Assembly: GCA_002709005.1 (NCBI GenBank)
Contig: PAPH01000017.1
Location: 1 to 64,000, forward strand
DNA from: Hyphomicrobiales bacterium
Lineage (GTDB): Bacteria > Pseudomonadota > Alphaproteobacteria > Rhizobiales > Rhizobiaceae
Direction: 5' to 3'
DNA: 64,000 nt
The notes under the pieces are model-generated. The model saw only the letters and a program-made list of their open reading frames with translations. It was not told the DNA's origin and did no database searches. The first letter of the stretch is position 1. Each line of letters starts with the position of its first letter. Position numbers and translations under genes: made by a program. This document shows, one piece after another, positions 31,529 to 34,896 of the stretch.

Positions 31529-31544
31529 TTAACCTAGCTTTAAC
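31529..31544 (+). promoter_or_regulatory. CtrA-type binding site (TTAA-N7-TTAAC)
   Basis: TTAACCTAGCTTTAAC, exact match to the TTAA-N7-TTAA consensus, 52 bp before the DltA-like start. Confidence 0.55.
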
Positions 31545-31595
31545 TCCAAAATAGATCTCTCGTTGCTATAGTAATGTCAGCCAATAGGGGGCGGC

Positions 31596-33158
31596 ATGAA
31601 CTACAACATAGCGCATCCATTTACCCGGAACGCCAGGATATCGCCGGACAGCACCGCGCTGGCGTTGGGAAAGACCCAACTTTCCTACGGTCAGCTTCTG
31701 CGATCTGTCAGAACACTGGGCTCGCGCCTGCACTGCACGTTGAATTCGGGACGGATCGGTATTCTCGCCACGCGCAGCATCGAGGCCTGCGCCGGCATTC
31801 TCGCCACCGCCTGGGCGGGCGGCACCTATGTGCCCCTCGGCCAGAAACTGCCGGAAAGCCGTCTCCTCCAACTCTTCGAACGTCTCGATCTCGACGCGCT
31901 CGTGGTCGACGCGGCGGGACGCAAGCTTCTTTCCGGCGAAATCCTCGCCGCCGCCCCAGCTGCGATTTTCGCGCCAGGCCCGACGCCGGGTTCATTCGTC
32001 GACGCGCGGACCGGCGGAGCGATCGATCCCGATGTGCTGCTCTCCTCACCCGTTCCGACCGGCGCGGACCATCTCGCCTATGTGGAATTCACGTCGGGGA
32101 CCACTGGCATACCGAAAGGGGTGATGGTCTCGAACGGCGCGGTCCGTTCCTATATCGACGCGATGAAGCGCTGGTACGATTTCACGCCCGGCGACCGCGC
32201 GGCCGAAACCTGCGATATCACCTTCGATCTATCCGTCCACAACATGCTGATGGCCTGGGAAGCCGGCGCCGCTCTCCATCTCATGCGCCCGCTCGACATG
32301 CTGGCTCCCGCCCGTTTCGTGGCGCGGGACGGGATCACCACCTGGCTTTCGGTGCCCTCGGTGGTCGCCATGGCGCGGGAAACCGGGTCGCTGCAGCCCG
32401 GCTCCATGCCGTCGTTGCGGATTTCACTCTTCTGCGGCGAGGCGCTGCCCGCCGATATCGCCAACGCCTGGATGGCAGCTGCTCCCAACAGCGTGGTCGA
32501 CAACATATACGGCCCGACCGAGGCCACCATCGCCTGCCTGCGCCAGAGCTGGAGCGAGAAAGGGCTTGTGACCGGCGAGCGCGGCATCGTCGCCATCGGC
32601 AAACCCTATGACGGGATGGAGGCGATGATTGTCGATGGCGAACTCAATCCGGTGGCCGACGGCGAGGCCGGGGAAATAGCGCTGTCGGGCCGGCAGCTCG
32701 CCGAAGGCTATTTCCGCCAGGCTGACCTCACAGCCGAGCGCTTCCCGACGATCAAGGGCAAGCGCTGGTATCTCACCGGCGACAGCGGCTACTGCGACGA
32801 GGGCGGCGTCTTCCATCACCTCGGCCGGCTCGACAACCAGATCAAGCTCAAGGGCTACCGGATCGAACTCGAGGAGATCGACATGAAGCTCCGGGAGGCC
32901 GCGCGCGTCGATCTCGCGGCAACGATCGCCTGGCCGGTCCGCGATGGGGTGGCGCAGGGCATCGTCGGCTTTTGCTCCGGCGCTACGAGCGATGCAAACC
33001 ACATTCTCTCGCGGCTGCGCGAGACACTCCCCGCCTACATGGTCCCCTCGCGGGTGGAAATCATTGACGCCATGCCGCTCAACGCCAACGGCAAGATCGA
33101 CCGCAAGGCGCTCATCGCCCGTCTGGAGCCCCGTTCGGGTCGCCGGGAGGTCGCGTGA
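31596..33158 (+). CDS. Stand-alone amino-acid adenylation protein (DltA-like)
   Basis: 520 aa; FTSGTTGIPKGVMVSN (A3), CDITFDLSVHNML (A4, conserved Asp), NIYGPTEAT (A5), YLTGDSG (A7), GRLDNQIKLKGYRIELEEID (A8), NANGKIDRKAL (A10). Confidence 0.88.
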   Translation: MNYNIAHPFTRNARISPDSTALALGKTQLSYGQLLRSVRTLGSRLHCTLNSGRIGILATRSIEACAGILATAWAGGTYVPLGQKLPESRLLQLFERLDLDALVVDAAGRKLLSGEILAAAPAAIFAPGPTPGSFVDARTGGAIDPDVLLSSPVPTGADHLAYVEFTSGTTGIPKGVMVSNGAVRSYIDAMKRWYDFTPGDRAAETCDITFDLSVHNMLMAWEAGAALHLMRPLDMLAPARFVARDGITTWLSVPSVVAMARETGSLQPGSMPSLRISLFCGEALPADIANAWMAAAPNSVVDNIYGPTEATIACLRQSWSEKGLVTGERGIVAIGKPYDGMEAMIVDGELNPVADGEAGEIALSGRQLAEGYFRQADLTAERFPTIKGKRWYLTGDSGYCDEGGVFHHLGRLDNQIKLKGYRIELEEIDMKLREAARVDLAATIAWPVRDGVAQGIVGFCSGATSDANHILSRLRETLPAYMVPSRVEIIDAMPLNANGKIDRKALIARLEPRSGRREVA

Positions 33159-34648
33159 TGACTGCCTTCGACGCCACGAGTCCGTCCAACGGCGGAGCGC
33201 TCAACCCATTCGAACTCCGCCGGCGCTGGCTCGCCATGGACGGCAACGAGGCAGTGCTGGCCTGGGCCGGCACCCGACTTGGCCAGGCACTCATCTTTGG
33301 TGCCTTCGCCGCACTGATCCTCGCCGTGCCGCTTCTGCGGTTCAAGCATTCGCTCATCATCGCGATCGGGCTCGGCCTCACATTCGTGTTCCCGCGGCGG
33401 CGCTTCGCGATGATCACCGGCATGGGCTTTCTTTATTTTCTGGTGCGGCCGTTCCGGTTCGAGGGGCACTATGGGTATTTCGCCCAGATCTGGCAGGGTT
33501 GGGCGAGTCCGCTTCCCGTTCAGGTGGGAATGAGCGTCCTGGCGCTTCTTTTCGCCTTTGCGCTGCTGCCCTACTTCGCCAACCAGCGCAGCGGCACGAT
33601 CGGCTTCGCTAGCCGCCGTCCGATCCTGTCGCTCTTTGGTCTCTGCGTCATGCTGACGGGCGCCACCGCCCTGCTCCCCGAAGAGACACCGGTCGCGCAA
33701 TCGCTGTGGATCGTGCTGACCTTCTTGTCGGGGGCCTTCTTCTTCATCGGCTATCTGCTGATCGACAACCGGGGCAAGACCGGGCTTGCGTTCAATGCCA
33801 AGGCCGGTTTCATGCGCCCGATCTGGGCGGACGGAACGGTGCCGATCAAGGGGCCGAACTATCTGCGCAAGTTCGAGGCAGGCGACGAGACGGCCCTCGC
33901 CCGGACACGGCTCAAGGCGCTCAAACTGTTGGTCTGGGCCTCCATCCTCTATGCGGCCTGGCTTCTGGGTTTCGAACACGGCATCCACGGAAGCCTGGGC
34001 TTTCCGCGGCTGGCGACGGCCATTGCGGGTGCGGGCGAGGATGCGACCTACAGCCTGCCGATGCGGTGGCTGATCGTCGGTATCGATTTCCTCTCGCTGA
34101 TCTTCTGGCTCGGCGCCGTCATACACACGCTCGTGGCCGTCATCCGGCTGGCCGGTTTCGCCATTCCGCGCGGCATGGCCAAGCCGCTAGCCTCGCGGAC
34201 GATCGCCGAATTCTGGGGCCGCTATCTCTTCTATTTCAAGGAGCTGCTTGCCGACTTCTTCTTCTATCCGACGTTCCAGCGCTTCTTCAAGAAAAGCCCC
34301 AGGCTTCGCATCGCCTTCGCGACCTTCGTCGCCGCCTTCATCGGCAACGTGCTTTTCGACCTGATCACGCAGACGCCGTTCGTGGCCATCAACGGCTTCT
34401 GGGCGACGATCGACAATTTCTACAGCTACACGATCTACGCCGCGATCCTGACCGCCGGTATCATCGCCTCGCAGCTCCATACCGCTAAGGCCCGGCCCGA
34501 GGACGGCGTGCTGCGCTACGACGTGCTGCCGCGTATCCAGGTCATCGGCTTCTTCGCCGCGCTGCGGGTGTTCGACGATTCCTCGGGCAGCCTGCCCGTC
34601 GGCGACCGTGTCCACTTCTTCCTCAGCCTGTTTGGAGTATCCCCATGA
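33155..34648 (+). CDS. Multi-pass membrane protein, divergent MBOAT/DltB-like candidate
   Basis: 497 aa, many TM segments, TIAEFWGRYLFYFKELLADFFFYPTFQRFFKK; translationally coupled between the adenylation and carrier genes. Confidence 0.6.
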   Translation: MMTAFDATSPSNGGALNPFELRRRWLAMDGNEAVLAWAGTRLGQALIFGAFAALILAVPLLRFKHSLIIAIGLGLTFVFPRRRFAMITGMGFLYFLVRPFRFEGHYGYFAQIWQGWASPLPVQVGMSVLALLFAFALLPYFANQRSGTIGFASRRPILSLFGLCVMLTGATALLPEETPVAQSLWIVLTFLSGAFFFIGYLLIDNRGKTGLAFNAKAGFMRPIWADGTVPIKGPNYLRKFEAGDETALARTRLKALKLLVWASILYAAWLLGFEHGIHGSLGFPRLATAIAGAGEDATYSLPMRWLIVGIDFLSLIFWLGAVIHTLVAVIRLAGFAIPRGMAKPLASRTIAEFWGRYLFYFKELLADFFFYPTFQRFFKKSPRLRIAFATFVAAFIGNVLFDLITQTPFVAINGFWATIDNFYSYTIYAAILTAGIIASQLHTAKARPEDGVLRYDVLPRIQVIGFFAALRVFDDSSGSLPVGDRVHFFLSLFGVSP

Positions 34649-34896
34649 CCGCCACGATCATCGAGACCGTCCGCCGCACCGTTACCGACCTTCTCGCTGA
34701 ACGGGGCATGCCGATCCAGATCGACGACGGAGAATCGCTCTTCGACAGCGGCAAGCTCGATTCCATGGCGGCGGTGAACATCATGATGAAGCTCGAGGCC
34801 GACTTCGGCATCGATCTGTCCGATCCCGATTTCGACATCTCGCAGATCGATTCCGTTGAAGGCATCTCCGAACTCGTCTCGCGACAGATGAACTGA
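34645..34896 (+). CDS. Acyl/aminoacyl carrier protein (DltC-like)
   Basis: 83 aa; GESLFDSGKLDSMAAVNIMMKLEADFGIDLSD, phosphopantetheine Ser in LDSM context. Confidence 0.85.
   Translation: MTATIIETVRRTVTDLLAERGMPIQIDDGESLFDSGKLDSMAAVNIMMKLEADFGIDLSDPDFDISQIDSVEGISELVSRQMN

Follow-up and report, generated by a model that had tools for sequence, protein, structure and literature searches.

The window analysed here is a stretch of 64,000 nucleotides from a member of the Rhizobiaceae (contig PAPH01000017.1). It carries three overlapping genes on the plus strand, here called A, B and C, and according to the list of open reading frames each start lies inside the end of the preceding gene (see Table). 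B starts either at a GTG at 33155 (497 aa) or at an ATG at 33158 (496 aa); the overlap between A and B is 4 bp with the GTG start and 1 bp with the ATG start, and B and C overlap by 4 bp. The triad is flanked by msrB upstream and by an oligopeptidase B gene downstream. A previous sequence-only reading had placed three coupled genes in a region beginning at 31529. The three coupled open reading frames are indeed present, but 31529 falls into the upstream gap and the ATG of A is located at 31596. Overall, the arrangement of the three genes is real and conserved.

Table. Genes and sequence features of the A-B-C triad, and second copies of B in other genomes
Feature	Position	Strand	Description
A	31596..33158	+	520 aa; stand-alone amino-acid adenylation enzyme, AlmE-like; Gly or D-Ala predicted, pocket code DLHLLCIIA
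B	33155..34648	+	multi-pass membrane protein with predicted MBOAT (DltB-like) fold; catalytic His absent
C	34645..34896	+	83 aa; carrier protein, LDSM phosphopantetheine motif
B motif EFWGRYLFYFKELLADFFFYP	34208..34270	+	residues 352-372; ungapped counterpart of MBOAT EFWRRWH...RDYxYIP
B Gly397-Asn398	34343..34348	+	counterpart of MBOAT WH (catalytic His replaced by Asn)
B His324	34124..34126	+	on the preceding helix; sole conserved His of B; codon counted from 33155
Second B copy with GNAT gene	L009:4779-7446, L010:4828-7449, L011:4730-7449		

Of the 398 Rhizobiaceae genomes sampled, approximately 21 contain a full-length relative of B; many of these belong to Hoeflea or Pseudohoeflea. Beyond this family, such relatives occur in another family of the same phylum (14 genomes), in two more genomes from the order, in a Lysobacterales and in several Acidobacteria MAGs, and five more genomes contain remote relatives. 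The triad is not a general rhizobial system, as its distribution is patchy. Of four genomes sampled from the same genus, two lack both A and B, which indicates that A and B come and go together. The three genes are kept together in Rhizobiaceae, other Proteobacteria and Acidobacteria, with the order A-B-C in a first group (Rhizobiaceae), C-B-A in a second (the other family) and A-C-B in a third. In locus L018, A lies on the opposite strand, and one genome (G736) contains B and C with the nearest, distant A elsewhere. A survey of the genome neighbourhood had been suggested by the sequence-only reading; in about 40 loci A and C recur beside B and no other recurring neighbour was found. No recurring SGNH gene was seen beside B in these loci, whose neighbours were partly scanned for SGNH domains.

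Some loci showed additional features. Transposase-like open reading frames, recognized by eye, lie on both sides of the triad in Hoeflea sp. NORP7 (L007), in keeping with the patchy distribution of the triad. A membrane protein of 354-360 aa without Pfam match was considered as a constant partner and rejected, since it was found behind the triad in just two genomes (L005:7757-8839, L080:9076-10140). Three related genomes possess a second copy of B without A or C directly after a gene with a GNAT domain (PF13480, CelD/FemAB-like), which is broken into two open reading frames in L009; a full triad is present at another locus in each of these genomes (L079, L104, L105). In a remote branch (L100, L101, L102), B comprises about 570 aa. 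Genes near it in L100 encode a phosphatidylserine decarboxylase-like protein (PF02666) with a homologue in L101, and a protein of the sulfatase family with a homologue in L102; both point tentatively to a lipid acceptor.

A represents an intact adenylation enzyme (PF00501, 2.9e-61; TIGR01733, 8.5e-90). It contains the A4 aspartate (FDLS), through which such enzymes bind the amino group of their substrate, and the earlier suggestion that an amino acid rather than a fatty acid is activated is supported. The gene read as a carrier was likewise recovered as such: C matches the phosphopantetheine attachment domain PF00550 (1.5e-8) and contains the motif LDSM. A search of the PDB with the pocket region of A yielded 4oxi as top match (98.2 bits), the AlmE protein of Vibrio cholerae with bound glycyl-AMP, whereas DltA scored 51.8 bits. 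Pairwise identity in this region is 51/109 residues (47%) to 4oxi compared with 35/110 to DltA of Bacillus subtilis. The nine-residue pocket code of A shares seven positions with that of 4oxi (DLHLFCLIA); the code of DltA is DLMTMCTVA. Judged by the pocket region, A resembles AlmE more than DltA, and AlmE is the closest among the solved structures. The designation of the system as Dlt-like is therefore only half right: it applies to B, which is related to DltB, and not to the pocket of A.

The cysteine of the pocket code corresponds to Cys269 of DltA, which selects against L-Ala (PMC4176424), so that glycine or D-alanine is the best guess for A. Most likely the substrate is glycine, with D-alanine next, although predictions from pocket codes are uncertain for stand-alone adenylation enzymes. 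AlmE itself mis-activates D-Ala (PMC12930378). Pocket codes vary between the branches of the family (e.g. DAYEVGSIC and DNFFMGCCI), and hence the branches may also differ in the amino acid they use. In the family with the gene order C-B-A (L091-L096 and L051-L064), A has the code DAYEVGSIC with a Glu at position 278. This resembles codes for ornithine-type substrates, and the amino acid loaded in this branch may be a basic one.

B had no match in Pfam or PADLOC, the MBOAT model PF03062 matched none of 18 members of the B family, and a PDB sequence search with the B profile was negative; a fold search was therefore needed. The DltB model TIGR04091 was matched weakly by 11 of 18 relatives (best 8e-7). 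Using hhalign, a family profile of 45 sequences aligned to ordinary MBOATs with an E value of 3e-12, ungapped over approximately residues 301-396. An AlphaFold model of B was built from 18 sequences (pLDDT 82.7, pTM 0.83), and its best 12 PDB matches in Foldseek were all MBOAT enzymes, with DltB in first place (E 6e-4, probability 1.00, TM approximately 0.4-0.5). Confidence in the model is lowest within the motif, at residues 359-366 (pLDDT <50). Assignment of B to the MBOAT fold is well supported; at a TM of 0.4-0.5 this does not extend to structural details.

Both segments of B that had been singled out from the sequence, the FW-R-like EFWGRYLFYFKELLADFFFYPTFQ and the following FIGNVLFDLI, are present. 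The motif of the family, EFWxRY...KELLxDFFFYP, aligns without gaps to EFWRRWH...RDYxYIP of ordinary MBOATs. The first active-site histidine (RWH) is replaced by Leu358 in B and by Leu, Phe, Tyr or Thr across all family members. At the WH site, 26 residues past the motif proline, G/A-N or once G-D is found in 49 of 49 distinct members, i.e. the position of the catalytic His is occupied by N in 48 and by D in one. All ordinary MBOATs with WH at the canonical spacing (6/6) share the same ungapped motif. Thus, an Asn is located where the catalytic His is expected, as had been noticed before, and by this alignment the position of Asn398 at the WH spacing is not due to chance.

We also considered a different register. 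Shifted by four residues, the window protein has Asp402 and still no His, and 34 relatives have a His. These 34 are among the 44 members of the main and sister branches, and their His402 follows an aromatic residue (YH, FH), reminiscent of WH; in the remote branch, all five members have His403. Only the clade of the window protein (nine distinct members, Asp402) and one other sequence (Ser402) are without a His at either place. The assumption that every nearby His was lost in all family members was dropped, as most have His402 or His403. The catalytic His might accordingly have shifted by one helical turn to position 402, or 403 in the remote branch, with Asp402 taking its part in the clade of the window protein; the spacing between the two His of DltB (289 to 336; PMC11035591), which is longer than in AlgI-type proteins, would fit such a shift. 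However, the ungapped profile alignment reaches residue 396 and places the His on 398, and the members with Asp402 or Ser402 argue that a His is not needed there. We regard this shift as rather unlikely. Because the clade of the window protein has Asp402 and no His in this stretch, the loss of the His in the window protein holds in either register.

Among the seven His residues of B, H324 alone is conserved; it is present in 46 of 49 relatives, and ordinary MBOATs have an Asp at this position in 11 of 14 cases. Near-invariant in the family are K/R362, E363, R385 and N398, and the polar residues near the old active site (K/R362, E363, R356, N398 and H324) are strongly conserved. Position 362 corresponds to Ser293 of DltB (counted from Trp285), which is among the three that reportedly block the DltB tunnel (PMC11035591). 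The conserved basic residues K/R379 and R385 lie after the motif and could form a docking place for the carrier. Based on the conservation of H324, K/R362, E363, R385 and N398, we propose that the active site of B may have been re-laid. The C-terminus of B, FFLSLFGVSP, is without the acyl-shuttle motif FxYxxF. Family tails read LFGV or FGI and lack the Tyr, whereas ordinary MBOATs from the same searches mostly end with FIYFQF, a type of shuttle tail described for PatA and DltX (PMC12148441).

With both active-site His positions and the FxYxxF tail gone, B could also be a pseudo-enzyme whose part is confined to bringing C to the membrane or to forming a pore, the chemistry being left to a transferase encoded at an unlinked locus. 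The MBOAT His has been called universal and its exchange for Ala abolishes auto-acetylation of PatA (PMC12148441), and the mammalian HHATL, in which the His is replaced by Leu, is of doubtful enzymatic activity (PMC5831804). The strong conservation of K/R362, E363, R356, N398 and H324, on the other hand, looks like that of a working site, as does the constant pairing of B with C over three gene orders. We therefore consider it unlikely that B is catalytically inactive. An unusual transfer step, as postulated by the sequence-only reading, is likely and gains additional support from the related sequences; B may use a chemistry different from that of other DltB-type enzymes.

An orphan DltB-like MBOAT with the catalytic His retained (GFWHFPS) was found at L043:1123-2490 (L132:6026-7393) and also in L042 and L046. 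It has no Pfam match, matches TIGR04091 with 1e-22 over most of its length and has the tail LPRMFGF, which is not a shuttle tail. In L132 an adenylation or carrier gene was not found nearby.

On balance, we favour a self-standing aminoacyl-transfer cassette, in which A, B and C would transfer an amino acid directly to an acceptor in the envelope. A would activate a small amino acid, most likely glycine with D-alanine next, as the adenylate and load the aminoacyl group onto the phosphopantetheine arm of C. Loaded C would then dock on B from the cytosol, and the aminoacyl thioester would travel through the MBOAT-type tunnel of B to a site lying in the outer half of the bilayer. DltC has been shown to bind DltB from the cytosol with its arm able to reach the active site (PMC11035591). 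From there, the aminoacyl group would be passed directly to an acceptor such as a hydroxyl- or amine-bearing lipid, lipid A or a glycan, without an acyl-tyrosine shuttle of the DltX/PatA type and without an SGNH partner. As the usual MBOAT His would not be usable, candidate residues for this step are His324, Lys362/Glu363 and Asn398. What sequence and structure computation shows is the conserved A-B-C unit, the absence of His, shuttle motif and DltD, the MBOAT fold and the AlmE-like pocket; amino acid, docking, passage through the tunnel, acceptor and chemistry we infer.

Several observations speak against the cassette. The active site is without the residues needed in DltB and PatA, and B could be a non-catalytic scaffold. 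An acceptor gene linked to the triad was not found among the neighbours, and the second copies of B beside a GNAT gene, with no A or C adjoining in three genomes, do not fit a strict three-part model. Alternatively, the triad might produce and export a small aminoacylated molecule in the manner of a natural-product-like mini-NRPS, with no modification of the envelope. A is generally NRPS-like in its similarity and no recognizable envelope gene cluster surrounds the triad; yet genes for condensation, thioesterase or tailoring functions do not recur around it, AlmE as the closest relative of A with a known role feeds an envelope modification, and the fold of B is that of envelope acyltransferases. 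Production of such a molecule thus appears improbable.

Returning to the cassette, the triad probably loads glycine (or D-alanine) on C and passes it to the envelope via a His-less B of the DltB type. In a more general form, which we put forward tentatively, the family of B might represent a widespread branch of MBOATs. Its members would take aminoacyl groups from a dedicated carrier and transfer them directly, by a re-laid site with a His on the preceding helix and an Asn in the old place, and without shuttle or SGNH protein. The MBOAT His is termed universal and is essential where tested (PMC12148441), and the B family is without His at its place. As the family has kept the fold and its own donor-loading enzymes in at least two phyla, the role of the MBOAT His becomes directly testable. 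If true, the MBOAT fold would support a second chemistry, and Gram-negative envelopes would be decorated with amino acids in a new way, by a route additional to AlmEFG and MprF that might affect surface charge and sensitivity to cationic peptides. In the open-access literature we found no prior description of the triad or of a bacterial His-less MBOAT.

With the MBOAT-SGNH systems (PatA/PatB, AlgI) the triad has the MBOAT fold and the FW-R region in common; it differs from them by the expected carrier-protein donor instead of acyl-CoA and by a B without the C-terminal FxYxxF tail. HHATL, the sole MBOAT exception named to the His rule (PMC5831804), shares the fold and the missing catalytic His (replaced by Leu), but it is a eukaryotic single protein, whereas B forms a bacterial family beside its own donor-loading enzymes. 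Compared with Dlt systems (DltABCD(X)), the triad likewise consists of an adenylation enzyme, a carrier and a membrane protein with the predicted DltB fold. However, scores for the Dlt models were far below their cut-offs: A reached 251.8-255 bits for TIGR01734 (DltA; cut-off 559.85), B about 20 bits for TIGR04091 (DltB; cut-off 375), and C 26.5 bits for TIGR01688 (cut-off 52.35) and 34.5 for PRK05087 (cut-off 68). Furthermore, B is without the catalytic His, and teichoic acid is not expected in a Gram-negative bacterium. The reported absence of DltD was reproduced: no DltD follows the triad, and a TIGR04092 search detected none in the 83.7%-complete genome, with B. subtilis and Lactococcus lactis as positive controls.

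By its parts, the nearest system is AlmEFG, whose components function in lipid A glycylation in V. cholerae (PMC12930378, PMC3783018). This known Gram-negative system, which also works without DltD and teichoic acid, was overlooked in the earlier comparison with Dlt, from which the lack of DltD and the relation to DltB still stand. Common to both are an adenylation enzyme, a carrier, here encoded by C, and a membrane-associated transferase, the Gram-negative host and the absence of DltD, as well as the AlmE-like A (7/9 pocket residues, 47% identity over 109 residues). AlmG is a protein of the lysophospholipid-acyltransferase type (PMC3783018); an AlmG-type transferase is absent from the operon and the third gene here encodes a multi-pass protein with the predicted MBOAT fold, so that AlmG is swapped for a DltB-fold protein. 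With Dlt model scores far below cut-off, no DltD and another protein in place of the AlmG-type transferase, the triad is a member of neither AlmEFG nor DltABC, and in its functions it is most like both. Judged from the sequences, it is unlike the known AlmEFG and Dlt systems in that an AlmE-like donor side is joined to a His-less DltB-fold protein, most relatives of which keep a His one turn away.
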